A DNA stretch of 41,826 nucleotides, taken from assembly GCF_902806265.1 (NCBI RefSeq), contig NZ_CADCVZ010000019.1, positions 1-41,826 of the forward strand. Reading direction: 5' to 3'. Positions within the stretch are counted from its first letter, which is position 1, and the number at the start of each line of letters is the position of its first letter. The notes under the pieces are model-generated. The model made no database searches. It was not told the DNA's origin and saw nothing but the letters and a program-made list of their open reading frames with translations. The position numbers and the translations under genes were made by a program. Shown here in pieces: positions 5,967-27,310 of this stretch. Origin of the DNA: an uncultured Sphingomonas sp. GTDB taxonomy: Bacteria; Pseudomonadota; Alphaproteobacteria; Sphingomonadales; Sphingomonadaceae.

Positions 5967-6539
5967 CTACTTTCCGCCTTCGCTCTCTTCGATCCGTTCC
6001 AGCACCGCTTCGGGGGCGACGTTGCGCTTAAGTTCCTCGAGTTCCGGGTTGCGGGCTTCCTCAATGCCGAGCTTGTCGGCGATCCGCGCGACCAATTCGA
6101 TTAGCCGGGTGACCTCATGCTCGGACAGGAGGCTGATCTGCAGGTCGAGATCAGCTCGCCGGTCCGCCGCCGCCGCAGCGCGGTTCTGGCTGATCAGGAT
6201 GAAGGTGGACAGAAAGATTGCTTCAACCGACGCGACGGTCGCCAGGATGACGAAGGTCGGGTCGAATGGTTCGAACGGAGTCAGCCGCACGTTCACCAAG
6301 ACCCAGGCGATCACCAGAACGGCATGGATCCCGACAAAGGTGATGGAGCCGGCGAACTGGCTGATGGCGTCCGCAAGCCGGTCCTGCAGCGACGCGTCGG
6401 CCGCTTCCTGCCGCCGCCGCTCGGCCAGCGCCTCAATGTTCCGTTCGAGCGCCGTGGCGAGCCCCGAGGAGGGCGCCACGGTCGGCGTGCGGCTAGGCGG
6501 AGGTTGGCTGCTCACCGCGGATGAACGTTTCGGTGGCAT
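5967..6539 (-). CDS. DUF1003 family membrane protein
   Basis: Small membrane protein of the DUF1003 family; function unknown. The diagnostic core is GSITFVGIHAV, followed by a loop with FEPFDPTFVIL and SVEAIFLSTFILISQNR, giving two membrane helices. A charged, probably helical C-terminal tail follows. The ATG at 6539 gives 190 aa and overlaps the inositol-phosphate synthase by 47 bases. A GTG at 6479 would give 170 aa, start just after the synthase stop and still include all conserved sequence. I cannot choose between them because neither has a strong ribosome-binding site. The N-terminal extension is Pro/Ser-rich and not part of the family core. Confidence 0.88.
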   Translation of the reverse strand: MPPKRSSAVSSQPPPSRTPTVAPSSGLATALERNIEALAERRRQEAADASLQDRLADAISQFAGSITFVGIHAVLVIAWVLVNVRLTPFEPFDPTFVILATVASVEAIFLSTFILISQNRAAAAADRRADLDLQISLLSEHEVTRLIELVARIADKLGIEEARNPELEELKRNVAPEAVLERIEESEGGK

Positions 6540-7605
6540 GGAGAGCTTCGTCGTCGGTCATCTGCTCGGGCGGATGCTTGCAGAAATAGGCGGCGGGCGC
6601 GATCACTGGACCGCCGAGCCCGCGGTCGAGCGCGACCTTGGCGCAGCGGATCATGTCGATTGCAACGCCCGCGCTGTTGGGCGAGTCCTCGACCGACAGC
6701 CGCAGCTCCAGGTTCATCGGCACGCCGCCGAACATGCGGCCTTCCATGCGCAGGAAGCACAGCTTGTTGTCGTTCTGCCAGGCGACATAGTCGGAAGGGC
6801 CGACGTGGATGTTCTCGTCGTCCAGCCGGCGTTCGGCGACCGACTGCACGGCCTCGGTCTTCGACTCCTTCTTCTGCTTGAGGCGCGAGCGCTCGAGCAT
6901 GTTGAGGAAGTCGGTGTTGCCACCCGTGTTGAGCTGGTAGGTCCGGTCCAGCCGCACGCCGCGCTTGGCGAACAGGTCGGTTAGAACCCGGTGCACGATG
7001 GTCGCACCCAGCTGCGCCTTGATGTCGTCGCCGACCACCGGCACGCCGCGCTCGGCGAACCGCCGGGCCCAGACGGGGTCGCTGGCGATGAACACGGGAA
7101 TGCAGTTGACGAAGGCGACGCCCGCTTCGAGCGCGCACTCGGCGTAGAACTCGGTCGCTTGCTGGCTGCCGACCGGCAGGTAGTTCATCAGCACGTGCGC
7201 GCCCGTCTCCCGGAGCACCCGCACCACCTCGGCTTGGTCGGGCTCCGGCTCATCGGCAACGACGAACGTCCGCTCGGCTGGGTAATCGGCCATGTGCGCG
7301 GCCACACCGTCGAGCCTGCGCCCCATCAACACGCTTGCGCCGGTCGGCGGCACATGGTTGCAGAACACGGCCGTGTTGTTCGGCTTGGCGAAGATCGCCG
7401 CGTTAACGTCCTGCCCGACCTTGCGCGCATCCACGTCCCAGGCCGCGACGACCTTGAGATCCTTGGGTCGGTAGCCGCCGAGGTCCCAGTGCATCAGGCC
7501 GATCTGCTCGTTGGCCCCGCCGTTCTGGTAATGGGCGATGCCCTGCACCAGGCTGGACGCACAATTGCCGACCCCGACGACGGCAATGTTGATGGTCGGG
7601 TCCAT
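6493..7605 (-). CDS. ino1: Inositol-3-phosphate synthase, actinobacterial type
   Basis: Converts glucose 6-phosphate to 1D-myo-inositol 3-phosphate in an NAD-dependent reaction. At 370 aa it matches the length of the actinobacterial enzyme. Signature segments include VGVGNCASSLVQGI (NAD-binding loop), the LPVGSQQATEFY and NCIPVFIASDPVWARRF stretches, GDDIKAQLGATI with the catalytic lysine region, LNTGGNTDFLNMLERSRL and DSPNSAGVAIDMIR. These match Mycobacterium tuberculosis Ino1 closely as I remember it, unlike the longer eukaryotic form. The neighbouring sugar-nucleotide enzymes and glycosyltransferases suggest that inositol phosphate is a building block or acceptor for the product of this locus. 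Twelve bases separate it from the glycosidase gene upstream. Confidence 0.95.
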   Translation of the reverse strand: MDPTINIAVVGVGNCASSLVQGIAHYQNGGANEQIGLMHWDLGGYRPKDLKVVAAWDVDARKVGQDVNAAIFAKPNNTAVFCNHVPPTGASVLMGRRLDGVAAHMADYPAERTFVVADEPEPDQAEVVRVLRETGAHVLMNYLPVGSQQATEFYAECALEAGVAFVNCIPVFIASDPVWARRFAERGVPVVGDDIKAQLGATIVHRVLTDLFAKRGVRLDRTYQLNTGGNTDFLNMLERSRLKQKKESKTEAVQSVAERRLDDENIHVGPSDYVAWQNDNKLCFLRMEGRMFGGVPMNLELRLSVEDSPNSAGVAIDMIRCAKVALDRGLGGPVIAPAAYFCKHPPEQMTDDEALHATETFIRGEQPTSA

Positions 7606-7617
7606 GGGTCCTCGTCC

Positions 7618-8541
7618 TTATTCAGCGGCCACGCGGGCCGCGGTGGCGCTAGCCGGCGCATAGCGCTCGATCATCTGCGCGCAGAAGTCAGCGAACTGCT
7701 GCGGGTCCTTGGGTGGGCTGGTGTGGTGCGGCGCGATGCCCAGATGCTCGGGGGTGAAGCAGAAGGTGACTGTGGTGTCGAAGTCGGCAAGCGCTTCCAT
7801 CTGCCGGTCGAACCAGCCGATCGCGTCGGGGCGGAAGCTGTCGGCCCAGCTGAGGCCGGTACGCAGCTTGGTGACGCCGAGCCGCTTCATCCAGGCGACC
7901 GCATCGTCGAGCCGGGGGTCGTGATAATGGAACCACTGCATGAGGCCCATGCCCGCCGCATAAGGCTCGAACGCCTTTAGGCCCAGCTTGGGCATCCCGT
8001 CGGCCTTGATCAGGCCCATGTAGAAGTGGCGGTAGTAGCTCGACCCCTCCGCCTCGCGGTGGCGGGTGGTGGCGCCCCATTCCTGCGGCAGGTCGAACAG
8101 TGAATACCAGAAGACCTGCGGGACCTTCCCGATCAGCAGCTCGGCGGTTCGCTTGACCCCGAACTCCTGCACTTCTTCCGCCCCAAACGAGCCGACGCCC
8201 ACCTCGCTGACCCACAGCTCATGGTCCGGCACCACCGCCGCGATCTCGTCGACCTTGGCCGGCCATTCGTTGATGTTCCACAGGTTCCAGTCGAGCGGAA
8301 AGCCGTGCAGCGCGACCACGTCGATCTCGTCCAGCACGCCGTAGCCACCCAGCCGCTGGACGAACGAGGGGTCGATCGGCGACATGCCGCCGAGCACGCG
8401 CTTCACGTCCGGGTTCACGCCGGCGATCGCACGCGCCGCGAGCTTGGCCATCTCGCCGAACTTCGACCAGTCGGGATCGATCTCCGGGTCCCAATGCGAC
8501 TTGTTGTTGGGCTCGTTCCAGATCATCGCGGCTTCGATCAA
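7618..8541 (-). CDS. Clan GH-A (GH39-like) glycosidase homologue with permuted TIM-barrel order
   Basis: Glycoside-hydrolase-like protein of about 307 aa. The putative acid/base motif MIWNEPNN sits at the very N-terminus (E10), whereas in ordinary clan GH-A enzymes it ends strand 4, well over 100 residues in. The putative nucleophile is E113 in WVSEVGVG (strand 7), and strand 8 is VFWYSLFDLP. A typical family end, MGLIKADGMPK, lies near residue 180. About 115 more residues then read like the missing first strands: LMQWFHYHD, GVTKLRTGLSWAD, WFDRQMEAL and VTFCFTPEH. The order therefore appears to be strands 4-8 followed by 1-3. The start is TTG 8541, overlapping the methyltransferase stop (TTGA), with AAAGGA about nine bases before it; ATG 8526 is the alternative. 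Substrate unknown. Confidence 0.85.
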   Translation of the reverse strand: MIEAAMIWNEPNNKSHWDPEIDPDWSKFGEMAKLAARAIAGVNPDVKRVLGGMSPIDPSFVQRLGGYGVLDEIDVVALHGFPLDWNLWNINEWPAKVDEIAAVVPDHELWVSEVGVGSFGAEEVQEFGVKRTAELLIGKVPQVFWYSLFDLPQEWGATTRHREAEGSSYYRHFYMGLIKADGMPKLGLKAFEPYAAGMGLMQWFHYHDPRLDDAVAWMKRLGVTKLRTGLSWADSFRPDAIGWFDRQMEALADFDTTVTFCFTPEHLGIAPHHTSPPKDPQQFADFCAQMIERYAPASATAARVAAE

Positions 8542-9320
8542 GCGGCTGGTCCTTTCGCGGGATAGACGGCGCCGCCATGGCTGACCGGCTCGGGGCTGAC
8601 CTGGGCCAGAAACACATCGCTGATCGGTTGCGCAACAAGGTTGAACCCGGCCGAGCGCAGCATGGCCGCGCAGGCGGCGCTGTTGGGCACCCACCAATTG
8701 GTGGGATCGCCGGCCAGGCGGTGCTCGACGAAGTGCATCAACGGCCAGCCCTCGCCTTCGATTGCCTTCACGCCCTCGAAGAACTCGTAATCGGGCTCGG
8801 GCTGCGCATGCTCCGTGGAACCCGCGGTCAACGACTGGAACAGCAGCAAGTCGCCCGCGACATGCTCGCGGATGAGGTCCAGCGCGAGCAGCGGGTGCCG
8901 GAGGTGGTAGAGCACCCCCATGAAGATGACGAGGTCGAACCGCTCGCCGAGCGCGCCGACGTCCCACACTTCGCCCTGGCGGAACTCGACATCGTCGAAG
9001 CCCAGCACCTCGGCTGCGAACCGCGCTTGTTCGAGATAGCGCTCGTCATGGTCGATCCCGAGCACTCGGCTTGCGCCCCGCCGCTTCATGTCGAAGCTGT
9101 AGAAGCCGGCGTTGCAGCCGATATCGAGCACGCTCTTGCCGGAGAGATCCTCCGGCACGACGCTGGCAAAGCGGCGGAACTTGCCCGCGGGATAGTCGAA
9201 CAGGAAGTGATCGGGCGCCGTCCGCACGCCCTTGAGATCCAAGTCGTGAAACCAAGGGGCGAGTTCTTTCACCCGCTGCTCGACCGCCCCCCGATCCGAA
9301 GCTTGGCTCGCCGCTAGCAT
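8538..9320 (-). CDS. SAM-dependent class I methyltransferase (CmoB/DUF1698-like)
   Basis: Probable small-molecule or glycan methyltransferase of 260 aa. The SAM-binding glycine loop is SVLDIGCNAGFYSF (about 63-76), followed by the acidic residue of motif II in VLGIDHDERYLEQAR and by FDLVIFMGVLYHLRHPL. The N-terminal WFHDLDLKGVRT and the WWVPN segment near the C-terminus are as in the CmoB/DUF1698 group, but the context argues for glycoconjugate modification rather than tRNA modification. The start is ATG 9320, overlapping the phosphatase stop by one base (TGATG); a TTG at 9323 is the alternative. Its stop overlaps the glycosidase start. The acceptor is unknown. Confidence 0.92.
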   Translation of the reverse strand: MLAASQASDRGAVEQRVKELAPWFHDLDLKGVRTAPDHFLFDYPAGKFRRFASVVPEDLSGKSVLDIGCNAGFYSFDMKRRGASRVLGIDHDERYLEQARFAAEVLGFDDVEFRQGEVWDVGALGERFDLVIFMGVLYHLRHPLLALDLIREHVAGDLLLFQSLTAGSTEHAQPEPDYEFFEGVKAIEGEGWPLMHFVEHRLAGDPTNWWVPNSAACAAMLRSAGFNLVAQPISDVFLAQVSPEPVSHGGAVYPAKGPAA

Positions 9321-9895
9321 CAAGCGGCCGCCTTCCGGCGAGCACCGACGGCCAGTCTCGCAACGGACGCCGGCTCAGCCTCGAAACTCAGTATGTCGTC
9401 GAGTGAGCGTCCGTGCTCGCGGCACAGCAGCGCGCGGATGATGTCGCAATGGGTGACCAGCACCACCGTCTGTTGAGGGTGGCGTTGTCCGACCTCATCG
9501 ACGAAGGCGGCCGCGCGATCCCGGGCCTCGGCCATGCTTTCCCCGTCCGGGCAACGGGCTAGCGAGCGCCGGCTGTTCCAGTGGTCCCACTCGGGCCGGC
9601 CGTCCAATTCCTCGAAGCTCCGGCCGGTCCATGCACCGAAGTCGATTTCGTCGAGCGGTTCAGCAACGATCACCGGCCGGCTGTGGACGGCTGCAATCGC
9701 TTCGGCCGTTTGCCGCGTGCGTAGCCGCGGGCTGGCGTACACCGCTGCCACCGCTTCATCCGAGAGCTCCGTCGCGAGCGCGTCGGCCTGACGCGATCCC
9801 TCCTGCGTCAAGCCGCCGTCGGACCCGCGTCCGGTCAGCCGGTGCCCGAAGTCGGCGTGCGCGGCATGCCGCACAAGCAAGATGGTTGCCGCCAG
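9320..9895 (-). CDS. Histidine phosphatase family protein, probable CTG start
   Basis: Phosphoglycerate-mutase-like phosphatase of about 191 aa. The catalytic motif is ILLVRHAAHADFGH (R9, H10 from the proposed start). Other landmarks are ASPRLRTRQTAEAI, the acid region EIDFGAWTGRSFEEL and the second catalytic histidine in VVLVTHCDIIRALL. The conserved first strand begins just after a CTG at 9895 that has AGGGAGG (9901-9907) five bases upstream. There is no in-frame ATG, GTG or TTG between that site and the conserved domain, so CTG is the best start. TTG 9880 would cut into the first strand, and starts further upstream add only unconserved sequence. It is the first gene of the leftward operon. 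Dephosphorylating inositol phosphate or a glycosyl phosphate would fit, but this is inference. Confidence 0.85.
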   Translation of the reverse strand: MAATILLVRHAAHADFGHRLTGRGSDGGLTQEGSRQADALATELSDEAVAAVYASPRLRTRQTAEAIAAVHSRPVIVAEPLDEIDFGAWTGRSFEELDGRPEWDHWNSRRSLARCPDGESMAEARDRAAAFVDEVGQRHPQQTVVLVTHCDIIRALLCREHGRSLDDILSFEAEPASVARLAVGARRKAAA

Positions 9896-9932
9896 TGGTG
9901 CCTCCCTGTTCGCCGTCCCAACAGGGGCTTGT

Positions 9933-9990
9933 AAGCTTTGTTCCCGCGGGCGCAAGCTTTGTTCCCTTGCGCGCGGCGGCAAACGGGAAC
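9933..9990. promoter_or_regulatory. Divergent promoter region with direct repeats and GGGAACA elements
   Basis: The 170 bases between the two divergent operons hold a perfect 13-base direct repeat, AAGCTTTGTTCCC, at 9933-9945 and 9954-9966, start-to-start 21 bases (two helical turns). Read on the minus strand each copy begins GGGAACA, and a third GGGAACA lies on the plus strand at 9985-9991. On the minus strand GGAAC (9944-9940), 16 bases and TGTT (9923-9920) resemble the alphaproteobacterial EcfG pattern GGAAC-N16/17-CGTT with one mismatch. On the plus strand GGAAC (9986-9990), 16 bases and CATT (10007-10010) do the same. Either a tandem operator or a pair of ECF-sigma-like promoters is possible. 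Confidence 0.5.
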
Positions 9991-10065
9991 ATAGATGAAG
10001 AAGGATCATTATGCGGCGGCAACGATTATCGGCAGAAATCGGCCGCGGCAACAGGGGGCAAACAA

Positions 10066-11181
10066 TTGAGCGAAACCGTTCTGATCACGGGGGGAGCGGG
10101 CTTTATCGGACGGTTCGTCTGTGACGAATTGCTCCGTCGCGGTCACAAGGTGCGCGTGCTCGACAGCCTGATCGAGCAGGTGCACGGCGATGTGGAGCGG
10201 CCCGAGGGATTGGCCGCCGATGTTGAACTGATCCGCGCCGACGTCCGCAACGGCGATGCGGTCACCAAGGCACTCAAGGGCGTGGACAGCGTCATTCACC
10301 TGGCGGCAGAGGTCGGCGTCGGCCAGTCGATGTACGCGGTGGAGCGCTACACCAGCGTCAACGATGTCGGCACCGCGGTCCTGACCGAGAAGCTGATCGA
10401 CAATCCCGTGCGCCGGATCGTCACCGCCTCCTCCATGAGCATCTACGGCGAGGGGCTGTACCGGGACCAGGACGGCGACTTCGTTCAGGACGCGGAGCGC
10501 GGCGCTCGTACGTCTGACAACCAGAGCTGGGACCCGCTCGACAGACAGGGCCGTCCGCTGACCCCGGTCGCCACGCCCGAGTGGAAGCAGCCCAGCCTCG
10601 CCTCCATCTACGCGCTCGGCAAATATGTGCAGGAGCGCACCACCATGATCATGGCGGGCGCCTACGGCATGGAAGGCGTGTGCCTGCGCCTGTTCAACGT
10701 CTACGGCCCGGGCCAGGCGCTCTCCAATCCTTATACCGGCGTGCTGGCGATCTTCTCCTCGCGGCTGCTCAACGGGCAGAAACCGGTGATCTTCGAGGAC
10801 GGCGGACAGCGCCGCGACTTCGTCTACGTCGGCGACGTCGCCCGTGCCTTCGCCGACGCGCTGGAGCTGCCGCAGGCGGCGGGCGGCGTGTTCAACATCG
10901 GCTCGGGCCAGGACCGCTCCGTCACGCAAGTGGCGCAGAGCCTCGCCCGGGCGATGAACCGCAACGACCTCGCACCGGAGATCGTCGGCAAGACCCGCGT
11001 CGGCGACATCCGCCACTGCTTCTGTGACACCTCGCTGGCCGCGGACCGCCTTGGCTTCCGCGCCACCAAGGACTTTGAGGAAGGCTTGGCGGAGCTCGCC
11101 GGCTGGGTCGCGGAGCAGGAAGCGGTGGACCGCGTCGACCAGGCCAAGGCCGAGCTCGAACAGCGCGGGTTGGTCGCGTGA
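10066..11181 (+). CDS. NAD-dependent epimerase/dehydratase (extended SDR)
   Basis: Sugar-nucleotide-modifying enzyme of the extended short-chain dehydrogenase family, 371 aa. It has the Rossmann motif GGAGFIG (9-15), IHLAAEVGVGQSMY, the serine stretch TASSMSIYGEG and the active-site YALGK (Y182, K186). An insertion of roughly 45 residues separates the serine strand from the tyrosine and includes WDPLDRQGRPLTPV. LRLFNVYGPGQ and RRDFVYVGDVARAF are standard for the family. The start is TTG 10066, with AGGGGG eight bases before it. The open frame extends about 435 bases further upstream, but that part is antisense to the phosphatase gene and the promoter. First gene of the rightward operon. The precise substrate (UDP-, GDP- or dTDP-sugar) cannot be told. 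Confidence 0.92.
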   Translation: MSETVLITGGAGFIGRFVCDELLRRGHKVRVLDSLIEQVHGDVERPEGLAADVELIRADVRNGDAVTKALKGVDSVIHLAAEVGVGQSMYAVERYTSVNDVGTAVLTEKLIDNPVRRIVTASSMSIYGEGLYRDQDGDFVQDAERGARTSDNQSWDPLDRQGRPLTPVATPEWKQPSLASIYALGKYVQERTTMIMAGAYGMEGVCLRLFNVYGPGQALSNPYTGVLAIFSSRLLNGQKPVIFEDGGQRRDFVYVGDVARAFADALELPQAAGGVFNIGSGQDRSVTQVAQSLARAMNRNDLAPEIVGKTRVGDIRHCFCDTSLAADRLGFRATKDFEEGLAELAGWVAEQEAVDRVDQAKAELEQRGLVA

Positions 11182-12257
11182 GCGGTCCGGCCGTTATCGG
11201 CCGCAAGCCGGTGCTGGTGACCGGAGGCGCCGGCTTCATCGGCTCCAACGTCGCCAACCGGCTGGCGGGCGAGGGCCGCGACGTGCTGGTCTACGACGCG
11301 CTGTCGCGCCCGGGGGTCGAGCGCAACCTCCAATGGCTTCAATCGCGCCACGGCGAGCGCATCAGCTTTGTTCGCGGCGACGTGCGCGACGAGGACAGCC
11401 TTGCGGCGGCGGCGCGACAAAGCGAAGCGGTGTTCCACATGGCCGCGCAGGTCGCGGTCACCACCTCCATGGTCGACCCGCGGGAGGACTTCGACATCAA
11501 TGTGCGGGGCACGCTGCACCTGCTCGACGCGCTGCGCTTATCCGGGCGGCGGGTGCCGCTTATCTTCGCGTCCACCAACAAGGTCTACGGCGACCTTGCC
11601 GACCTCGATTTCGAACTCGATGGCGGAGCTTACCGGCCAGTCGACGCAGCCGTCCGGGAGCACGGCATTTCGGAAGCGCAGCCGCTCGACTTCCACACCC
11701 CCTACGGCTGCTCCAAGGGCGGGGCCGACCAGTACGTGCTCGACTACGCCCGCAGCTTCGACCTGCCGACCGCGGTCATCCGCATGAGCTGCATATACGG
11801 CGAGCGGCAGATGGGCACGGAGGACCAGGGCTGGGTCGCCCACTTCCTGATTCGAGCGCTCGAAGGCGAACCGATCACCCTCTACGGCGACGGCTACCAG
11901 GTCCGCGACATCATGGACGTGCGCGATGCCGTTGACGCCTACATGGCTGCATTGAAGCAGATCGACCGGATCAGTGGCCGTGTGTTCAACCTCGGCGGCG
12001 GTCCGCGAAACACCGTCTCCCTGCGCCAGATCGTCGCCCACATCGGCGAGGTCACGGGCCGCCGGCCTGACGTTCGCTTCGCCGACTGGCGCGCCGGCGA
12101 CCAGCGTTACTTCGTGGCCGACACGCGGCTGATCCGCTCCACGCTGGGCCTTGCCGAAGCGCGCGGATGGCAGGAGGGCGTGGCCGATCTCGCCGGGTGG
12201 CTTGCCGAAGAGCGCGACCTGCGCGACGCCCCGATGCCCCTCAAGGTCCGCGCGTGA
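11178..12257 (+). CDS. NAD-dependent sugar-nucleotide epimerase, CDP-paratose/tyvelose epimerase-like
   Basis: Second extended SDR of the operon, 359 aa. Motifs are GGAGFIG (16-22), HMAAQVAVTTSM, FASTNKVYGDL and TPYGCSKGGADQY with Y176 and K180. The STNKVYG and TPYGCSKGAADQY-like strings are typical of the CDP-paratose 2-epimerase (RfbE) branch. The real substrate may differ, because many proteins in this branch are unassigned. The start is GTG 11178, overlapping the previous stop as GTGA. It shares only the fold with the two other epimerase-type proteins of the cluster, so it is not a recent duplicate. Confidence 0.9.
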   Translation: MSGPAVIGRKPVLVTGGAGFIGSNVANRLAGEGRDVLVYDALSRPGVERNLQWLQSRHGERISFVRGDVRDEDSLAAAARQSEAVFHMAAQVAVTTSMVDPREDFDINVRGTLHLLDALRLSGRRVPLIFASTNKVYGDLADLDFELDGGAYRPVDAAVREHGISEAQPLDFHTPYGCSKGGADQYVLDYARSFDLPTAVIRMSCIYGERQMGTEDQGWVAHFLIRALEGEPITLYGDGYQVRDIMDVRDAVDAYMAALKQIDRISGRVFNLGGGPRNTVSLRQIVAHIGEVTGRRPDVRFADWRAGDQRYFVADTRLIRSTLGLAEARGWQEGVADLAGWLAEERDLRDAPMPLKVRA

Positions 12258-13354
12258 CCCCTCGCTTGCACCTCTTCCTCACGACGGACGCTGTTGGCGG
12301 GGTGTGGACCTATTCGGTCGAGCTCGCCGCCGCGCTTGCGGCCGAGAACGACGTCGCCGTCACGCTGGCGGTGCTCGGTCCGCCGGCCAGCGCCGAACAG
12401 GTTGAGCGCGCCGCTGCGATCCCGGGGTTGCGGTTGGTCCACGCGGAACTGCCGCTCGATTGGACGGCGGAAAGCGAGCTCGAGCTCCGGGCCACCTCTG
12501 CTGCCCTCGCGAGCTTGGCGGAGCGGGCTGAAGCCGACGTGGTGCAGCTCCACGCTCCCGCTATTGCCGTTGCCGCCTTCCCGGCGCCGGTGATCAGCGT
12601 GGTGCACAGCTGCGTCGCTACCTGGTGGGCGGCCGTGCGCGGAACCGAGCTGCCTGCCGACTTCGCATGGCGCACGGAGCTCGCCCGCGAGGGGATGGAG
12701 CGTTCGGACCTGGTCGTCGCGCCGACCCGCGCCTTTGCCGAGGTCGTGCAGCGGGTGTACGCTCTCGAGCAGCCGCCGGCCGCAGTCCACAACGGCCGGT
12801 CGCCCCTGCCCATGCCGTCGCTCGCCCGCTCGGAGCGCGCTTTCACGGCCGGCCGCCTATGGGACGAGGGGAAGAACGCGGCGGCGTTCGACCGCGCTGC
12901 GGCGCTTGCCGCGACCCCGTTCCGCGCGGCAGGCCCCCTCGCCGGTCCGAACGGAGCGTCAACGCGCTTGCTGTATGCGGAGGCGCTCGGCTCACTGCCC
13001 GAGGAGCGGCTGGCGGAGGAGTTCGCAGCGCAGCCAATCTTCGTTTCCGCCGCCCTCTACGAACCGTTCGGCCTGTCGGTGCTCGAAGCCGCGCAGGCCG
13101 GCTGTGCCCTGGTCCTGTCCGATCTTCCCACCTTTCGGGAGCTATGGAGCGGCGCCACCCTGTTCGTGAATCCGCGGGACGAACAGGCGATCGCGGCCAC
13201 GGTCGACCAGCTTGCGGCGCAGCCGGGCGAGCGCGAGCGCCTCGGCGCTGCGGCGCGCGAGCGTTCGGCACAGTTCACCTCGGAGGCCAACGCCCGCACC
13301 ATGCTCACGCACTATCGTAGCTTGTCCGAACGGCCGCAAAGGGCAGCGGCGTGA
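12254..13354 (+). CDS. Glycosyltransferase, GT4 type (GT-B fold)
   Basis: Retaining GT-B glycosyltransferase of about 366 aa. The N-terminus has the glycine-rich first loop LFLTTDAVGGVWTYSVELA; the middle includes VVQLHAPAIAV and VISVVHSCVATWW. The C-terminal nucleotide-sugar domain has RLWDEGKN and the EX7E motif in YEPFGLSVLEAAQAGCALV. The start is GTG 12254, overlapping the epimerase stop by four bases; an ORF from 12167 would be longer but its first part is the other gene in another frame. The region between RLWDEGKN and the EX7E motif is somewhat short for GT4. Donor and acceptor are not evident. Confidence 0.9.
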   Translation: MTPRLHLFLTTDAVGGVWTYSVELAAALAAENDVAVTLAVLGPPASAEQVERAAAIPGLRLVHAELPLDWTAESELELRATSAALASLAERAEADVVQLHAPAIAVAAFPAPVISVVHSCVATWWAAVRGTELPADFAWRTELAREGMERSDLVVAPTRAFAEVVQRVYALEQPPAAVHNGRSPLPMPSLARSERAFTAGRLWDEGKNAAAFDRAAALAATPFRAAGPLAGPNGASTRLLYAEALGSLPEERLAEEFAAQPIFVSAALYEPFGLSVLEAAQAGCALVLSDLPTFRELWSGATLFVNPRDEQAIAATVDQLAAQPGERERLGAAARERSAQFTSEANARTMLTHYRSLSERPQRAAA

Positions 13355-15545: not shown

Positions 15546-16639
15546 AGCTGGTCGTCCTCGGCCTGTCGCTGTCCTCCTCCTGGGGCAACGGCCACGCGAC
15601 CACCTTCCGCGCGTTGCTGGAGGCGTTCGCCGGGCGGGGCCACGACATTCTGTTCCTGGAGCGCGACGTGCCCTGGTACCGCGGGCAGTGCGACTTGGCA
15701 GACCCGAGCTACTGCCGGCTGGAGTTCTACGGCGACTTGGCCGAACTGGAGCGCTGGCGCGGGGAGATCGCGAGCGCAGACGCCGTGATGGTCGGCTCCT
15801 ACGTTCCGGACGGCGTGGCGGTGGGCCGCTTCGTTCAGGAGGCCGCGGGAGGCACCACCGCCTTCTACGACATCGATACGCCGGTGACCCTGGCCAAGCT
15901 GGAGCGCGGCGATTTCGAATATCTCTCGCCGGAGATCATCCCCGGCTACGACGTGTATCTGAGCTTCACCGGCGGGCCGACGCTGCGCCACATCGAGCAG
16001 CGTTACCGCTCCCCTGCCGCACGGGCACTCTACTGCTCGGTCGACACCGACAGGTACCAGCCGCTTGAGGTGCCCCAGCGCTGGCACCTGTCCTATCTCG
16101 GCACCTACAGCGACGACCGGCAGCCTACCGTCGAGCGGCTGCTCAACGCGGTTGCCCGCGCCCTGCCCGACCGCCGCTTCTGCGTGGCCGGGCCGCAGTA
16201 CCCCGCCGAGATCGAGTGGCCGAGCAACGTCGAGCGGATTGACCATGTCCCGCCCGCCGATCATCCGGCATTCTACGCGGCGAGCCGCTTCGCCCTGAAC
16301 GTCACGCGCGACGAAATGATCGGGGCGGGCTGGTCCCCGTCGGTCCGCTTGTTCGAAGCGGCAGCCTGCGCGACGCCCATCATCTCCGACGTCTGGGCCG
16401 GACTCGACCAGCTGCTGGAGCCTGGGCGCGAGATCATGCTGGCACGGACCACGCAGGACGTCGTCGCCGCGCTGGAGGAGCTTGCGCCCGAGCAGACACA
16501 GGCGATCGGCCGAGCCGCGCGGACACGCGTGCTACAAGAACATACCGCCCGGCACCGGGCGGAAGAGTTGGAACGCTGGTTGACGGAAGCGGCCCGCAGT
16601 AGGCAAGTCGCGCCGAGCAAGGGAAGGTTGTTTGCATGA
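15542..16639 (+). CDS. CgeB-like glycosyltransferase, copy 3
   Basis: Third tandem CgeB-like GT-B protein, 365 aa, beginning MKLVVLGLSLSSSWGNGHAT. It has AFYDIDTPVTLAKLE, YLSFTGGPTLRHIE, RWHLSYLGTYSDDRQP and the donor-domain segment SVRLFEAAACATPIISDVW. Overlaps with both neighbours are the four-base ATGA type. No frameshift or missing block is visible, so all three copies are probably active and act on successive acceptor states or with different donors. Confidence 0.9.
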   Translation: MKLVVLGLSLSSSWGNGHATTFRALLEAFAGRGHDILFLERDVPWYRGQCDLADPSYCRLEFYGDLAELERWRGEIASADAVMVGSYVPDGVAVGRFVQEAAGGTTAFYDIDTPVTLAKLERGDFEYLSPEIIPGYDVYLSFTGGPTLRHIEQRYRSPAARALYCSVDTDRYQPLEVPQRWHLSYLGTYSDDRQPTVERLLNAVARALPDRRFCVAGPQYPAEIEWPSNVERIDHVPPADHPAFYAASRFALNVTRDEMIGAGWSPSVRLFEAAACATPIISDVWAGLDQLLEPGREIMLARTTQDVVAALEELAPEQTQAIGRAARTRVLQEHTARHRAEELERWLTEAARSRQVAPSKGRLFA

Positions 16640-17652
16640 TCGGTAACAAGCCCGGTCCGAAGCGGGTTCTGATTGCCGGAGGCGCAGGCTTCATCGGCTC
16701 GCACCTTACGGATCGCCTGCTCGCCGCGGGTGCCGAGGTCACCGTCCTCGACAATCTGCAGACGGGCCGCCGCGAGAACCTTGCCCATCTGGACGGCGCT
16801 CGCGAGCTGCGCTTCATCAAGGCCGACATCACCGATGAGCTGCCGCGCAAGGTGACCGGCGACCGGTTCGACCAGATCTACAATCTGGCCTGCGCCGCCT
16901 CCCCGCCGCGCTACCAGGCCGACCCCGAGCACACCTTGCTCACCAACGTGCTCGGCACCCGGAACCTGCTGCGGCTGGCCGAGGCGCATGGCGCGCGTTT
17001 CCTGCTGACCTCCACCAGTGAGGTGTACGGCGATCCCGAGGTGCACCCGCAGCGCGAGGATTATCGCGGGTCAGTCAGCTGCACCGGCCCGCGCGCCTGC
17101 TATGACGAAGGAAAGCGTGCGGCCGAGACGCTGACCTTCGACTTCGTGCGGCTCGGCCGCGTGGACGCGCGCGTGGTCCGCATCTTCAACACCTACGGCC
17201 CGCGCATGGACCCTGACGATGGCCGGGTCGTCTCCAACGTCATCTGCCAAGCGCTCTCGGGTCAGCCGATCACCATCTACGGCGACGGGAGCCAGACTCG
17301 CAGCTTCTGCTATGTCGACGATCTGATTGATGGCATCCTGCGCCTGATGGCTCTCGAATGCGATCAGCCTGGGCCGGTCAACGTGGGCAACGCCGCCGAA
17401 CTCACCGTGCGCGATCTGGTGGAGCGGGTCGTCGCGCTGACCGGCACGAGCAGCCCGGTCACCTATCAGCCGCTGCCGCAGGACGATCCTCGTCGGCGCC
17501 GCCCGGACATCGGACTTGCCCAGCGGCTGCTGGGTTGGGAGCCCAGGGTCGACCTGCAGCAGGGGCTGGAGGCCACCACCACCTACTTCGCCGAGGAACT
17601 GCGCCGGCGACCGCCGGATGCCGGAGAGCCCGCGCTCGCCGCCGCGGAATGA
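16636..17652 (+). CDS. UDP-glucuronate decarboxylase-like extended SDR
   Basis: Extended SDR of 338 aa that resembles UDP-xylose synthase (UXS), which makes UDP-xylose from UDP-glucuronate. Diagnostic strings are GGAGFIG (15-21), LACAASPPRYQADP, LLTSTSEVYGDPEVHPQ and GPRACYDEGKR with Y156 and K160, then RIFNTYGPRMDPDDGRVVSN. The VNP(I/V)G segment normally before GPRACYDEGKR reads SCTG here, so the exact product should be treated as unproven. The start ATG overlaps the previous stop. A pentose or uronate donor for the adjacent glycosyltransferases is the natural inference. Confidence 0.9.
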   Translation: MIGNKPGPKRVLIAGGAGFIGSHLTDRLLAAGAEVTVLDNLQTGRRENLAHLDGARELRFIKADITDELPRKVTGDRFDQIYNLACAASPPRYQADPEHTLLTNVLGTRNLLRLAEAHGARFLLTSTSEVYGDPEVHPQREDYRGSVSCTGPRACYDEGKRAAETLTFDFVRLGRVDARVVRIFNTYGPRMDPDDGRVVSNVICQALSGQPITIYGDGSQTRSFCYVDDLIDGILRLMALECDQPGPVNVGNAAELTVRDLVERVVALTGTSSPVTYQPLPQDDPRRRRPDIGLAQRLLGWEPRVDLQQGLEATTTYFAEELRRRPPDAGEPALAAAE

Positions 17653-17658
17653 CGGTCG

Positions 17659-19329
17659 GTGCTGGTCTACGGCGACCATAGCGAAGCTGTCGACCCGCGC
17701 GCCCAGCTTGTTGAGATCGCCGACCGCCTGAGGGGCGGCTGGCTCAATCATGACGCGCTGACCGGCTGCTTCATCGATCTGGCGGGCGTAGCGCAGGGCC
17801 TTGCGGACGCGGATTTCCATGCTTGCGGCTGCGACCGGCCGCGGCCGGCCGAGGCCATGCTGCTAGAACAGCTCACCGGTCTGGCCTCCACCCTGCTCCG
17901 GTCTTGGGACCAGGGATGCGGCGGCGGACCGGGGCAGCCGCTCCGCATCCCCGTTCCGCTGCCCGGGCAGGTCCAGATTCGCTTGCCCGAAGGCTACGCC
18001 TTCTACGCGCTGCGGCCGGAGGCCTATGGCCTCGCCGCACGCCGATCAGAGCTGACCGGTCCTCCGCGGGTGATCGGGCTGCGCAGCATCGGCACCGGGC
18101 TCGCCTGCATGGCGGCGGCCGCGCTAGGCGCTCCGCCGCCGCTTACGCTACGACCAATCGGCAACCCCTTCGACCGGCGCCTCAATGTCGCTCCGGACCT
18201 TGAGCGCCAGATCCTATCCGGCGATTGCCACTACGTCATCGTCGACGAAGGACCGGGCATGTCGGGCAGCAGCTTCGGCGCGGTTGCCGATTGGCTCGAG
18301 GAGCATGGAATAGCGCCGGAGCGCGTCGCCTTTCTCCCTAGCCATGCGGGTGCCCTCGGTCCTCAGGCGAGCGCCCGCCAGCGCCAACGCTGGGCATCGG
18401 CGCAGCGGCCAGTGGTGTCGCTCGAGCGCCCGGAGGAAGGCTGGCTTGCGCCGCTGATCGGCCGTCCCAGCCAGCCACTGACAGACCTGTCCGGCGGCGC
18501 CTGGCGAGCTGCCGCTGCGATCCCCGAACAGGACTGGCCGTCGATCGACCCGATGTGGGAACGGCGCAAGTTCCTGGTAGCAACGGCAAGCGGCGAGTGG
18601 CTGGTCAAGTTCGCGGGGCTTGGCTGGATCGGCGAGCGGAAGCTCCAACTCGCACGCGAACTGCACTTGGCGGGGTTCGGATCGGAGCCGGCCGGTCTGG
18701 TCCGAGGCTGGCTGGTGACCCGCTGGCACTCCGATGCAGTGGTCGCCCGCCCAAGCCACGCGGAGCTTACCGCCTATCTGACGTTCCGCGCGAACCTGCC
18801 AGCTCCGGGTGCCGGCGCAAGTCCTGCGCAGCTCCTGACAATGATCCGCCGAAACTTACCCGCTCTCGCCAATTGGTCACCCGACCTCGACCGGCTGCAT
18901 CCGACACCCGTCTGCACCGACAACCGCATGGCGCGGTACGAGTGGCTGCGGCTACCTTCCGGCCAGCTGCTCAAGGCCGACGCGCTCGACCACCATGCCA
19001 CTCACGATCTCATCGGCTGTCAGGACGTCGCGTGGGACGTGGCCGGCGCCATTGTCGAACTCGGCCTGGAGCCGGACGAGGCAGGTCGGCTTGCGTCAGC
19101 AACCGGCGCCGATTCCGCGCTGCTGGACTTCTACCTCACCGCCTACACGGCATTTCGCATCGGGGCGCATCGGATGAGCGCGTCCACGCTCCACCATTGG
19201 CCGGAGGAACAGCACCGCCACCTCCTCGCGGCGAAGCAGCTTGAGCGGCGGCTAGCGTCCGTAGATGCGGTCGAGCACGCCGGCGACCTCGACGAGATGC
19301 CGGCTGTCGGGGTCGAACCCGGCGCCTGA
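17659..19329 (+). CDS. Unrecognised protein: PRTase-like N-terminal half plus APH/kinase-like C-terminal half
   Basis: I do not recognise this 556-aa protein as a named family. Residues 135-210 look like a type I phosphoribosyltransferase core: RVIGLRSIGTGLACMAAAAL, then the PRPP-loop-like YVIVDEGPGMSGSSF (192-206), where classical enzymes have an acidic pair and a GT/GS-rich loop. The C-terminal third, from about residue 295 (ERRKFLVATASGEWLVKFAG), resembles an aminoglycoside-phosphotransferase-type kinase fold, with KADALDHHATHD and DVAWDVAGAIVEL in place of the catalytic and metal-binding loops. The start is GTG 17659, six bases after the UXS-like stop; the ATG at 17649 is out of frame. 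The last 26 codons overlap the convergent oxidoreductase. It could make or activate a ribosyl or nucleotide-linked intermediate, but that is speculation. Confidence 0.8.
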   Translation: MLVYGDHSEAVDPRAQLVEIADRLRGGWLNHDALTGCFIDLAGVAQGLADADFHACGCDRPRPAEAMLLEQLTGLASTLLRSWDQGCGGGPGQPLRIPVPLPGQVQIRLPEGYAFYALRPEAYGLAARRSELTGPPRVIGLRSIGTGLACMAAAALGAPPPLTLRPIGNPFDRRLNVAPDLERQILSGDCHYVIVDEGPGMSGSSFGAVADWLEEHGIAPERVAFLPSHAGALGPQASARQRQRWASAQRPVVSLERPEEGWLAPLIGRPSQPLTDLSGGAWRAAAAIPEQDWPSIDPMWERRKFLVATASGEWLVKFAGLGWIGERKLQLARELHLAGFGSEPAGLVRGWLVTRWHSDAVVARPSHAELTAYLTFRANLPAPGAGASPAQLLTMIRRNLPALANWSPDLDRLHPTPVCTDNRMARYEWLRLPSGQLLKADALDHHATHDLIGCQDVAWDVAGAIVELGLEPDEAGRLASATGADSALLDFYLTAYTAFRIGAHRMSASTLHHWPEEQHRHLLAAKQLERRLASVDAVEHAGDLDEMPAVGVEPGA

Positions 19330-20241
19330 CGCAAGCCGCCGCGCCCAGTCGGCTGCGGCGCGGCCACCCCAATCGTCCTCGCGCCCGGCGAGCGGCCGGC
19401 TCGACGTGCCATCCATGCGGACCGCGTCGAAGGCGTAGAAGCTGCCGTCCACATTCCGCAGCGCGGCAGCGCCGCCCGTTCCGAAGAACTCCGCGGAGAT
19501 CACCGCTTCCTGCCCCGCGGGCAAGCGCCACGAGCAGGCGAGGCGCAGGACCGTACCGCCGGCCAGCGTGACCGTCGCTACCGCGAAGTCCTCGCACTGC
19601 TGGGCCGCGTTCCGCAGCGGCTCGCCCCCGCTCAGCAGGTGCGACTGCACCTCGACCACCTCCGGCCACTCCAGCGCCCATAAGGCCAGGTCGACCAAGT
19701 GGACGCCAAGGTCCATGACGCAGCCGCCGCCCGACAGCGCCGGGTCGTAGAACCATGGCTTGTCGGGGCCATAGGCGTTGTGGAAGGTGAGGTCCGCCGC
19801 GAAGACTCGGCCGAGCTCGCCGCCGCGAACCAGGTCGCGGATGGCCTGAATGCCGCCCGTGAAACGATAGCTGAGATCCACGCCGAGCAGGCGGTCACCC
19901 TGCTCGGCCGCCCCCACTACCCCGCCGACTTCCGCCGCCGTTCGCCCGAGCGGCTTCTGGCAGAACACGGCCACCCCCGCCCTCAGCGCACGGATCGACT
20001 GCTCGGCATGCAGCGCGCTGGGGCTGGCGATCACCAGCCCGTCGAGGTCCTGGGTCAGCAGCTCGTCCAGGCTGTCCATCGCGGCCGCGCCAGGCGCCAG
20101 TTCGATGGCTGCCGAGCGCATCTCCGCCGAGGGATCGGCGACCGCCGCCACTTCAATCACGCCGGTGGCGAGCATGGCCTCCATCCGGTGGCGGCCGATC
20201 CAGCCCACGCCGAGGAACCCCAGCCGCGGCTTGTCCGTCAC
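19252..20241 (-). CDS. Gfo/Idh/MocA family oxidoreductase
   Basis: NAD(P)-dependent sugar or cyclitol dehydrogenase, 329 aa. The N-terminal Rossmann motif is GFLGVGWIGRHRM, and the family EKP motif appears as FCQKPLGR, keeping the lysine and proline. The C-terminal domain contains VDLSYRFTGGIQAI and the metal-free active-site-type segment GGGCVMDLGVHLVDLALW. The GTG start at 20241 overlaps the dehydrogenase stop by four bases. Enzymes of this family oxidise inositols or UDP-sugars, so it fits both the inositol and the sugar-nucleotide part of the locus. Its 3' end overlaps the convergent gene by 78 bases. Confidence 0.93.
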   Translation of the reverse strand: MTDKPRLGFLGVGWIGRHRMEAMLATGVIEVAAVADPSAEMRSAAIELAPGAAAMDSLDELLTQDLDGLVIASPSALHAEQSIRALRAGVAVFCQKPLGRTAAEVGGVVGAAEQGDRLLGVDLSYRFTGGIQAIRDLVRGGELGRVFAADLTFHNAYGPDKPWFYDPALSGGGCVMDLGVHLVDLALWALEWPEVVEVQSHLLSGGEPLRNAAQQCEDFAVATVTLAGGTVLRLACSWRLPAGQEAVISAEFFGTGGAAALRNVDGSFYAFDAVRMDGTSSRPLAGREDDWGGRAAADWARRLASGAGFDPDSRHLVEVAGVLDRIYGR

Positions 20242-21221
20242 GGTACCACCAGCGCCTTGAGAAAGCCGTCCGGCCGGTCGCGAGTGTCGTTAAGCGCGTC
20301 GCCCAGCCGCTCGAGCGGGTAGCGGTGCGTGTAGAGCGGCGACGGGTCGAGCCGGCCGCTGGCGACCGCGTCGACCGCCTCCCGAATGCCTTCGATGTAG
20401 CGCGCTGGATCGCGCTCATGGGCGTTGATCACGTCCAACCCCCGCCAATTCCACAACCACATGTTGACCTGCCGCGGCCCATCCTGATGGTAGCCCGCGA
20501 CGATCAGCTTGCCGCGTTCCGCAGTAAGCTCTGCCGCCAAGTCGAGCGGCCACTGCTTGCCGACCGCCTCGATCACCCGCTCGCAGAACTTACCGTCCGT
20601 AAGCTCCTTGACCCGCTCGATGATCCCGCCGTGGTCTTCCATCGGGATCACCTCGGCCGCGCCGAACTGGCGGGCCACGTCGAGCGAGAACGGCCGGCGC
20701 GAGATCGCGATTACCCGCGCGCCCGCGTCGGTGGCCAGGCGGGTGAGGATCGCGCCCAGAAAGCCGATGCCGACGATGGCCACGGTCTGGCCGGCCTCGA
20801 TGTCGCTGCGCCGAAAGATGTTGAAGGCGCATCCGAGCGGCTCGCCCGGAAAGGGCTGGCCGTGAAGCGCCGGCGGCAGCTTCACCACCGCGTCCGCCTC
20901 GGCGACGTCGAAGTCGGCGTAGCTCTTGTAGCTCAATGCCGCCACGCGGTCCCCGAGCTGCATGGCCGTGACACCCTCGCCCAAGGCGTCGATCGTGCCC
21001 CAGCCCTCATGCCCCATGCCGCCTGGCTCCCCGGGGAAGCTCATCCACTCCGGGCCAGACCAAGGCGTCAAGTTGGAGGCGCACACCCCGCAACCTTCGA
21101 GCTTGACCCGCACCTGCCCAGGCCCGGGCTCCGGCCGGTCCACCTGCTTCAGCCGCATCTCGCCAGGCCCCGCCAGCACCGCAGCGCGCATGGGTGTACT
21201 CATAGTTGCGATGTCGCTCAC
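20238..21221 (-). CDS. Medium-chain (zinc-type) alcohol dehydrogenase family protein
   Basis: MDR-superfamily oxidoreductase of 327 aa, shorter than classical zinc alcohol dehydrogenases. It has the catalytic-domain GCGVCASNLTPW and GMGHEGWG motifs, then the Rossmann loop VAIVGIGFLGAILTRL. The four-cysteine structural-zinc lobe normally after GHE is absent, as in several polyol and threonine dehydrogenase relatives. The start is GTG 21221, eight bases after the epimerase stop and preceded by AGAAGAA; ATGs at 21203 and 21191 are alternatives. Likely substrate: a sugar, polyol or cyclitol hydroxyl in the same pathway as the neighbouring Gfo/Idh enzyme. Confidence 0.92.
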   Translation of the reverse strand: MSDIATMSTPMRAAVLAGPGEMRLKQVDRPEPGPGQVRVKLEGCGVCASNLTPWSGPEWMSFPGEPGGMGHEGWGTIDALGEGVTAMQLGDRVAALSYKSYADFDVAEADAVVKLPPALHGQPFPGEPLGCAFNIFRRSDIEAGQTVAIVGIGFLGAILTRLATDAGARVIAISRRPFSLDVARQFGAAEVIPMEDHGGIIERVKELTDGKFCERVIEAVGKQWPLDLAAELTAERGKLIVAGYHQDGPRQVNMWLWNWRGLDVINAHERDPARYIEGIREAVDAVASGRLDPSPLYTHRYPLERLGDALNDTRDRPDGFLKALVVP

Positions 21222-21229
21222 GTTTCTTC

Positions 21230-22252
21230 TCAGCTGGCGAAAGATTCGTCGGTCGGACGCGCGAAGAAGTCGAGGTACCAGGGCACGGCAACCGCCATCC
21301 CCTCGGCCACGGTATGGCTCGGCTGATAGCCCAGCAGCGTGCGGGCTTTGCTGATGTCGGCCAGTGAATGCCGCACGTCGCCCGGCCGGAACTCGCCCAT
21401 CTGCGGCTCGCGGGCGTAATGGACTTGGTGCTGGCGCAGCGCGTCGCGGATCAGCCCGAACAGTTGCAGCAGGCTGGTGCGTTCGCCGACCGCGACGTTG
21501 TACACCTCGCCCTGCGCGTCATCCCCGGCCAGAGCCGCGCGAATGTTGGCCTGCACCGCGTTGGCGACGTAGCAGAAGTCGCGGCTGGTCTCCCCGTCCC
21601 CGTTCACCAGCACCGGCTGATCGCCGATCATTGCCGCGGCCCACTTGGGGATCACCGCCGCATAAGCGCCGTCCGGGTCTTGCCGCGGCCCGAACACGTT
21701 GAAGTAGCGCAGGCCCGTCACCTTGATGCCGTAGCTCCGCGCGTAAACCGATGCGTAGATCTCGTCGGCCAGCTTGGTGGCCGCGTAGGGCGACAGCGGC
21801 GCTCCGATCCGGTCCTCGCGCTTGGGAAGGTCCGGGCTGTCGCCGTAGGTCGAACTGGAGGCGGCATAGACGAAGCGACTGACCTCCGCCCGGCGCGCAG
21901 CGTCGAGCATGTTGACGAACCCCGTGACGTTGACGTCGTGGGAGGTTAGCGGATCGGCCAGGGAGCGCGGCACGGAGCCGAGCGCAGCCTGGTGCAGCAC
22001 CACGTCCACGCCCGCGAGGGCGGCAGCACAAGCCTTGCGGTCGCGAATGTCGCCTTCGATGAAGCGAAAGCTCCTCTCGAACTGCTCGGGCGCGGCGGCC
22101 TGAAGCTCGTTGAGGTTGCGGCGATGACCGGTCGCGAAGTTGTCGAGCCCGACCACGCGCTGGCCGCCCTTCAACAACGCTTCGGCTAGATTGGAGCCGA
22201 TGAAGCCCGCGACACCGGTGACCAGCCAGGTGGACTGCCGGCCGGCGAGCAT
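21230..22252 (-). CDS. UDP-N-acetylglucosamine 4-epimerase-type SDR (WbpP/TviC-like)
   Basis: Extended SDR of 340 aa that interconverts UDP-GlcNAc/GalNAc or the corresponding uronic acids in characterised relatives. Diagnostic segments are [10 protein letters not shown] (13-22), [40 protein letters not shown] with Y156 and K160, and the strongly conserved [20 protein letters not shown]. It is the first gene of a three-gene leftward operon with the MDR and Gfo/Idh oxidoreductases. The ribosome-binding site is weak. An aminosugar or its uronate is thus a plausible component of the glycoconjugate. Confidence 0.93.
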
Positions 22253-24737: not shown

Positions 24738-24995
24738 TGGGACCGAATTTCAACTCCAGCGACAGCCACAGCCGTTCTACCGCGGCCACGCGCTCACGAG
24801 CGGTTACGCCAGACTTGCTGCCGGTAGAAGCGGTTTGCAGTCTTGCCCTTGCCTGCCGTCGGGGGTGGTGATGCTCCCAGCGGACTTGCGATTCAACCTG
24901 CCATGGCGTGGCCCGTCCGCAACGGATATCGACCCTCCGCAAAGATGCGCCGGGGAAGTCTGCGGTAGTCTGGTTTGGGCAGGGAGGAGTTGGAC

Positions 24996-27284: not shown

Positions 27285-27310
27285 CCGCCGGTTGGAGGAG
27301 TGGAGTTCGA

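Follow-up and report, generated by a model that had tools for sequence, protein, structure and literature searches.

A conserved alphaproteobacterial gene cluster that combines predicted genes for inositol synthesis and glycosyl transfer, carries EcfG-type promoter motifs and encodes an apparently circularly permuted glycosidase

What might a bacterium make from inositol, nucleotide sugars and four glycosyltransferases when no machinery for polymer assembly is encoded beside them? The question is raised by a contig of an uncultured Sphingomonas sp. (NZ_CADCVZ010000019.1, positions 1 to 41,826; this whole stretch of 41,826 nucleotides is referred to here as the window), in which an earlier note had described an orphan glycoconjugate locus between positions 5967 and 22252. 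Here we report that the locus belongs to a gene cluster which, judged by homology, is common to many soil-, plant- and skin-associated bacteria across the Alphaproteobacteria, sometimes on plasmids, and that its core genes are predicted, with good support from promoter motifs, to be under EcfG general-stress-response control. The reading towards which we lean slightly is that they would form an EcfG-induced, conserved and often plasmid-borne cytoplasmic pathway to a small decorated oligosaccharide, in which inositol most likely serves as the base or the cap.

Searches of open reading frames (ORFs) and protein families confirmed that the genes named in the earlier note are present and arranged as two divergent operons and one convergent operon. 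From the divergent gap at about 9.9-10.06 kb the minus strand runs outward through a histidine phosphatase, a methyltransferase of family TIGR04290, a glycosidase (GHcp), inositol-3-phosphate synthase (INO1), a DUF1003 protein and an ATP-binding cassette (ABC) importer, and the plus strand through two short-chain dehydrogenases/reductases (SDR1 and SDR2), four glycosyltransferases (GT1 to GT4), SDR3 and a two-domain protein of 556 residues. Converging on the plus-strand operon from the minus strand are a medium-chain dehydrogenase/reductase (MDR), a Gfo/Idh/MocA oxidoreductase (Gfo/Idh) and SDR4. The recurrent genes and the putative promoters are as follows.

6493..7605, minus strand: INO1, inositol-3-phosphate synthase (PF01658, 6.5e-36; TIGR03450, 447 bits)
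7618..8541, minus strand: GHcp, apparently a circularly permuted PslG-like clan-A glycoside hydrolase (sequence profiles)
8538..9323, minus strand: S-adenosylmethionine-dependent methyltransferase, TIGR04290, CmoB-like (351.8 bits, cut-off 300)
9320..9880, minus strand: histidine-phosphatase-family phosphatase (PF00300, 1.2e-45)
9920..9944, minus strand: putative EcfG-type promoter of the phosphatase-INO1 operon, GGAACAAAGCTTACAAGCCCCTGTT (motif match)
9986..10010, plus strand: putative EcfG-type promoter of the SDR1-GT operon, GGAACATAGATGAAGAAGGATCATT (motif match)
10066..11181, plus strand: SDR1, nucleotide-sugar epimerase-like (Pfam Epimerase family; best PDB match 4.6e-43)
11178..12257, plus strand: SDR2, CDP-tyvelose 2-epimerase-like (PDB 9rl0, 1orr)
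12254..13354, plus strand: GT1, GT4-type glycosyltransferase (Pfam)
13351..14454, plus strand: GT2, Glyco_trans_1_2 glycosyltransferase (PF13524, 9.2e-37)
14451..15545, plus strand: GT3, Glyco_trans_1_2 glycosyltransferase (PF13524, 4.6e-37)
15542..16639, plus strand: GT4, Glyco_trans_1_2 glycosyltransferase (PF13524, 1.5e-40)
16636..17652, plus strand: SDR3, predicted UDP-glucuronate decarboxylase (UXS; nearest PDB structures)
19252..20241, minus strand: Gfo/Idh/MocA oxidoreductase (PF22725, PF01408)
20238..21221, minus strand: zinc-type MDR dehydrogenase (PF00107, PF08240)

Starts were taken from codon inspection (phosphatase about 9880, SDR1 about 10066, GT1 about 12254); some searches, including those of SDR1 and GT1 against the PDB, used slightly different ones (9916, 10057 and 12251, respectively).

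The term orphan does not hold, as the gene set is conserved well beyond the genus. The recurrent set consists of INO1, the histidine phosphatase, the TIGR04290 methyltransferase, the glycosidase, two SDRs and four glycosyltransferases, often accompanied by UXS and by MDR with Gfo/Idh. We counted genes in 80 named loci, the best 80 of at least 570 confirmed and all picked by the methyltransferase, scoring a gene as present when tblastn identity was at least 35% over more than 35% of a protein from the window, Sinorhizobium meliloti, Paracoccus yeei, Azospirillum lipoferum or Roseomonas mucosa. By this measure GHcp occurs in 71 loci, the phosphatase in 58, INO1 in 57, SDR2 in 53, SDR1 in 51, UXS in 37, Gfo/Idh in 30 and MDR in 27; GT1, GT2 and GT3 are found in 51 each and GT4 in 64, paralogues, mainly of GT4, being open to over-counting. 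At least five of seven core genes are present in 46 of the 63 named loci that measure 19.5 kb or more, so that the search for the same gene set across alphaproteobacterial genomes, proposed in the earlier note as a check, found it to recur. The loci are mutually related (L061 is apparently the same contig as G008), and the ORF maps of unannotated loci are mechanical.

Annotated clusters are found in S. meliloti (strain 1021, at about 242-261 kb of pSymB), P. yeei, A. lipoferum, R. mucosa and Azospirillum brasilense, with differing accessory genes; SDR2 is not annotated at the cluster in the A. brasilense strain examined, and Rhizobium etli carries half a cluster, the SDR-GT half together with MDR-Gfo. 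Among plasmid records, 148 match GT3 and 147 match GHcp (only 98 of the latter align over at least 80% of the query, and in 50 the identity is under 60%), mostly from Sinorhizobium and Rhizobium, with others from Roseomonas, Paracoccus and Azospirillum. At a broader scale, the GHcp profile matched 13 of 398 genomes sampled across the phylum (the window's own included), all of the same class and one weakly. TIGR04290 scores above its cut-off in 7 of 37 genomes of the genus, again counting the window's own, and in none of 24 other genomes of the order. Among named records, the methyltransferase nearest to that of the window, at 93%, belongs to an uncultured Sphingomonas assembly. The gene order is kept in four same-genus relatives, and in two others (G007 and G030) the two-domain gene is located elsewhere. 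The alignments of SDR1 and Gfo/Idh in G007 (L024, L026) are split and that of GHcp does not begin before residue 54, which may reflect a damaged frame or a misassembly.

How is such a cluster regulated? PhyR, NepR and EcfG are encoded together in this genome, and the available text of a study of Sphingomonas melonis Fr1 gives the EcfG promoter as GGAAC-N17-20-GTT (PMC6599016). The two window sites (9944 on the minus strand, 9986 on the plus strand) face both divergent operons and are two of only four motif matches in 41.8 kb; the site preceding nepR in this genome shares its first eleven bases with the minus-strand site, and no EcfG-type site precedes the MDR/Gfo/SDR4 operon. The strongest control comes from the related loci, where GGAAC-N18/19-TT lies upstream of 86 of the 146 core genes that have a gap before them, versus 17 of 190 neighbours in those loci, a comparison whose Fisher odds ratio of 14.6 overstates independence because the loci are related. 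Split by gene, the motif precedes SDR1 in 32/43 cases, INO1 in 24/34, the methyltransferase in 9/10 and the phosphatase in 7/18, and at least one core promoter of this type is present in 49 of 61 counted loci. The distance to the TT peaks at exactly 18 or 19 nucleotides (39 and 37 of 104 oriented gap sequences, that is, 52 gaps each read both ways, versus 1-9 at other spacings), and the -35 box outscores all 29 other letter orders (32 versus at most 6). The form GGAAC-N16/17-NGTT was found upstream of SDR1 in 13/32 gaps (dinucleotide-shuffle mean 0.30), of the phosphatase in 8/23 (0.15), of INO1 in 6/14 (0.15) and of other genes in 5/35 (0.28). Measured against whole-locus density, a first motif test had given 4/55 gaps for CGTT where 0.8 were expected, and 13/55 for a looser box where 2.0 were expected. 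Among the named replicons, three of four gaps in S. meliloti and the gap in R. etli carry a site.

Several counts speak against this part of our reading. The stricter CGTT motif is rare (2/32 for SDR1, 0/23 for the phosphatase and 0/14 for INO1), 12 of the 61 counted loci have no EcfG-type core promoter, P. yeei has a site in one of four gaps, and no site was found in the gaps checked in A. lipoferum and R. mucosa. The motif is also not enriched genome-wide (240 sites versus 454 for a reversed control), and the evidence is therefore one of position and not of number. We nonetheless consider the predicted link to EcfG well supported. The promoters also strengthen the guess of a compatible-solute-like product made in the earlier note; the product itself is something that we infer.

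What points to inositol in that product? Within the genus INO1 is encoded in 8 of 37 genomes, comprising all seven with the cluster and one of the 30 without it (hypergeometric 7.8e-7), and the window's INO1 matches the mycothiol-type model TIGR03450 over the full model length, at a score below the 638-bit cut-off. It is not the only copy: a homologue 28% identical lies on contig C6 (L140:9214-10419), near two proteins without a Pfam match, a YcaO cyclodehydratase, an outer-membrane efflux protein and a Crp regulator. On this genomic coupling the product likely contains inositol, a conclusion that falls short of proof because INO1 could serve another purpose, because other members of the order encode it without the cluster, and because 5 of 46 core-rich loci show no INO1 within their flanks. 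Of the 24 genomes from the rest of the order, 10 encode INO1 and have no TIGR04290 protein above cut-off, which rejects the idea that INO1 is always tied to the cluster.

The other enzymes suggest what might be attached. SDR2 is closest by a wide margin to structures of CDP-tyvelose 2-epimerase (TyvE; 5e-76 to 9rl0 and 1e-75 to 1orr, the next relative at 1.1e-32), an enzyme whose hallmarks, in the accessible part of PMC7851689, are Thr124, Tyr164 and Lys168 together with cytidine-binding Trp/Phe residues. SDR3 stands equally clearly closest to UXS structures (2.4e-103, next 5.9e-50), hence its prediction as a UDP-glucuronate decarboxylase. The PDB matches of SDR1 are mixed epimerases and dehydratases, and the methyltransferase passes its curated cut-off. 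The best NCBIfam models for Gfo/Idh and MDR are IolG-type and scyllo-inosose dehydrogenase IolM, respectively, both far below cut-off, which gives only a hint of inositol-dehydrogenase likeness.

According to the scheme that we favour, INO1 would convert glucose-6-phosphate to inositol-3-phosphate, and the adjoining histidine phosphatase, our candidate phosphatase, would remove the phosphate before or after glycosylation. UXS would provide UDP-xylose, and SDR1 and SDR2 one or two epimerised nucleotide sugars, from which GT1 and then GT2-4 may build a chain that the TIGR04290 enzyme methylates. Where present, MDR and Gfo/Idh could oxidise and then re-reduce a ring carbon of inositol or of a sugar, and GHcp could trim or transfer sugars, the product presumably acting as a stress protectant. 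Substrates, order of steps, inositol as acceptor, and the location and role of the product are all our deductions; that the product is small and soluble is suggested by the missing export and polymerase genes. The broader proposal in the earlier note, a glycoconjugate pathway joining inositol synthesis to sugar-nucleotide chemistry, is supported. Two further observations count against the scheme. The phosphatase was undetected in two of six same-genus relatives, G007 and G030. In addition, GT1 is not close to MshA, scoring 32.4 bits against the 462.5-bit cut-off of TIGR03449 and finding only two weak PDB matches; its identification as MshA was rejected on both grounds, and because MshA is absent from those matches transfer by GT1 to inositol phosphate has no sequence support.

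The glycosidase of this scheme appears to be a natural circular permutation of a PslG-like clan-A barrel. Its profile meets PslG (PDB 4zn2, 5bx9) in two crossed, adjoining pieces, residues 200-296 matching PslG 25-131 (8.3 bits alone) and residues 3-153 matching PslG 132-301 (20.5 bits). Moving the C-terminal part to the front improved the single-sequence E-value to 2.3e-8 from 0.0045, the latter obtained with a longer ORF including out-of-frame sequence, and the un-permuted profile aligns as a single block (18-250 on PslG 25-280, E 4.3e-12 versus 3.1e-6 before). By sequence the two proteins thus share barrel and catalytic motifs and differ in strand order, the canonical order of barrel strands not being found in the GHcp profiles.

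Could a missing N-terminal half instead be hidden upstream? A 449-residue ORF at 7618-8967 was considered as the glycosidase and rejected; the real gene is 7618-8541 (307 residues), starting at TTG 8541 or ATG 8526, and the remainder overlaps the methyltransferase out of frame. As annotated in the deposited records of P. yeei, A. lipoferum and R. mucosa, the GHcp gene starts before the methyltransferase gene has ended, within its final bases, which leaves no upstream half concealed in frame. In 70/70 extracted members the motif [IL]WNEPNN is no more than about eight residues away from the start codon, the starts having been chosen by script near the alignment start. Glu10 and Glu113 are invariant (40/40), and GHcp has both the glutamate of the NEP motif and the second glutamate expected of PslG-like clan-A glycosidases, which would be, as in clan A, the acid/base and the second catalytic residue. 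GHcp would therefore offer a cleanly delimited example of natural circular permutation within a glycosidase family.

PslG, the nearest solved glycosidase, is a Psl exopolysaccharide protein, and this raises the question of whether the cluster decorates or builds a surface polysaccharide, such as a lipopolysaccharide (LPS) core, a capsule or an exopolysaccharide side chain, with polymerase and exporter encoded elsewhere in the genome. This is the main rival, because a polysaccharide pyruvyl transferase and FrhB join in some loci (18 of 80, a hint of a surface glycan that also weighs against our own scheme) and because the SDR-GT half in R. etli adjoins genes for LPS biosynthesis, O-antigen ligase and undecaprenyl-phosphate glucose phosphotransferase. 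Eight further ORF families were found repeatedly, each in at least 5 of 67 loci: a heptosyltransferase-type family (Glyco_transf_9, 15 loci), which also fits a surface glycan, a nucleotidyltransferase (14 loci, L131:8754-9977 among them, and in most cases immediately upstream of the TIGR04290 methyltransferase), a GT4-type glycosyltransferase, an acetyltransferase, a methyltransferase, an over-extended TIGR04290 ORF, a Crp regulator and one family without a Pfam match. No transporter, polymerase, flippase or chain-length gene is recognisable among these eight, and a link to inositol synthesis would be unexpected for a surface polysaccharide. In the window itself, no polymerase, flippase, ABC exporter or initiating transferase was found among the 38 ORFs scanned with Pfam, a subset of all its ORFs; the locus accordingly lacks, among scanned ORFs, what would define a capsule or O-antigen locus, as the earlier note had maintained. 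We regard a surface polysaccharide as rather unlikely.

The same lack of export genes, along with INO1 and four glycosyltransferases, would fit a glycolipid head group, for example a glycosylated phosphatidylinositol-like lipid, and DUF1003 proteins accompany 18 of the 80 loci. No phosphatidylinositol synthase or other lipid enzyme is recognisable among the recurrent families, however, the sole acyl-type family being Acetyltransf_6, which 8 of 67 loci encode, and we think a glycolipid distinctly improbable.

How far does the locus extend? All genes of the earlier note fall within 5967..22252; the minus-strand operon, however, continues past 5967, on the same strand and tightly packed, to about 1826, through a complete ABC sugar importer. 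The remaining features, which lie outside the conserved core or accompany it as accessory genes, are listed here.

1826..5925, minus strand: ABC sugar importer as a whole (Pfam SBP_bac_1, two BPD_transp_1, ABC_tran)
about 1826-3133, minus strand: importer solute-binding protein (SBP_bac_1)
3130-3972 and 3956-4837, minus strand: importer permeases (BPD_transp_1, two)
4834-5925, minus strand: importer MalK/UgpC-type ATPase (ABC_tran)
5967..6539, minus strand: DUF1003 protein, accessory (PF06210, 93.1 bits)
17659..19329, plus strand: two-domain protein, accessory (VDEGPGxSG loop motif)
21230..22252, minus strand: SDR4, TviC-like nucleotide-sugar 4-epimerase, apparent local addition (NF011728, 400.2 bits, cut-off 760)

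The importer and SDR4 were rejected as core members, the ATPase being present in 2 and SDR4 in 0 of the 80 named loci, and both look like local additions. Four SDRs had been attributed to the locus, and all are in the window; SDR4 is the one that is not conserved. The ATPase is at the locus in three of six same-genus relatives (one of the other three is a contig ending about 3 kb past INO1), and SDR4 is never the best match in the stretches from these six, one of them a short contig. The importer could point to a scavenging locus, in which a plant inositol glycoside is taken up and then degraded by GHcp, Gfo/Idh and MDR. Its place in the packed minus-strand operon, the below-cut-off resemblance of Gfo/Idh and MDR to inositol dehydrogenases, and a different sugar ABC importer flanking the S. 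meliloti cluster are in line with this, whereas four glycosyltransferases, UXS and INO1 are biosynthetic and only 2 of the 80 loci share the window's importer ATPase; scavenging seems to us very improbable indeed.

The two-domain protein, present in 15 of the 80 loci, has no Pfam or NCBIfam match at 0.001 and none in the PDB at 1. Its VDEGPGxSG loop is conserved among homologues and is, we presume from the motif, phosphoribosyltransferase-like, and its C-terminal half seems to resemble small-molecule kinases of the aminoglycoside-phosphotransferase type. Potassium channel genes lie beside Azospirillum clusters (L054 17123-18214, L138 2565-3647) and kdpABC near a Roseomonas cluster (L056 28599-32955). 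Further along the window, at 24975-33254, a TonB-dependent receptor is followed by three consecutive amidohydrolase-family proteins, the last fused to a PD40 beta-propeller.

The reading that we favour remains a cytoplasmic pathway to an oligosaccharide that probably contains inositol. A conserved pathway that is apparently under the main stress sigma factor of Alphaproteobacteria, and is present in S. meliloti, is a candidate contributor to stress tolerance that can be tested directly. A bolder version, that this is an unrecognised, plasmid-mobile stress pathway to a new class of methylated glycosyl-inositol protectants, parallel to galactinol and raffinose, with GHcp as an intracellular transglycosidase, is one that we put forward tentatively and consider doubtful.

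How does the cluster compare with known systems? The open-licence papers searched contained no characterised system of known product with this gene set, as the earlier note had supposed, no definition of the gene set and no link of it to EcfG, and the one search aimed at circular permutation of a glycosidase turned up no description of it. The enzyme families and the neighbourhood models TIGR04290 and TIGR04295 (B12_rSAM_oligo) are already known. The window's methyltransferase belongs to the former, and homologues of the A. lipoferum TIGR04295 protein, a radical SAM protein, occur in 13 of the 80 loci; the window itself has no TIGR04295 member, and both are hypothetical-equivalog models of families without an assigned function. 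Mycothiol biosynthesis proceeds through INO1, MshA and an unidentified phosphatase, MshA2. In the window, too, INO1 has a phosphatase and a GT4-type glycosyltransferase beside it and is nearest to the mycothiol-type model, but it scores below the model's cut-off, GT1 is far from MshA, and MshB and MshC were not recognised among the cluster proteins scanned. In the available portion of PMC4264754, two proteins from two-dimensional gels of A. brasilense are listed as down-regulated by FlcA under flocculation, namely a 'CDP-tyvelose-2-epimerase' (gi 392383820) and an 'NAD-dependent epimerase/dehydratase' (gi 392383823); neither could be linked to the cluster.

Parallels in logic are found with stress protectants. 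Galactinol and the raffinose-family oligosaccharides of plants follow a logic of stress-induced glycosyl-inositols, and the proposed pathway would share it with different glycosyltransferase families and with UXS and a methyltransferase in addition. In bacteria, EcfG-dependent glycosyltransferase, glycosidase and Zn-alcohol-dehydrogenase genes are listed for S. melonis in the accessible text of PMC6599016 and could not be mapped to this cluster. The same text describes an EcfG-dependent trehalose gene cluster in S. melonis Fr1, which resembles the present one in placing genes for a sugar protectant under EcfG and differs from it in its enzymes and, presumably, in its product.

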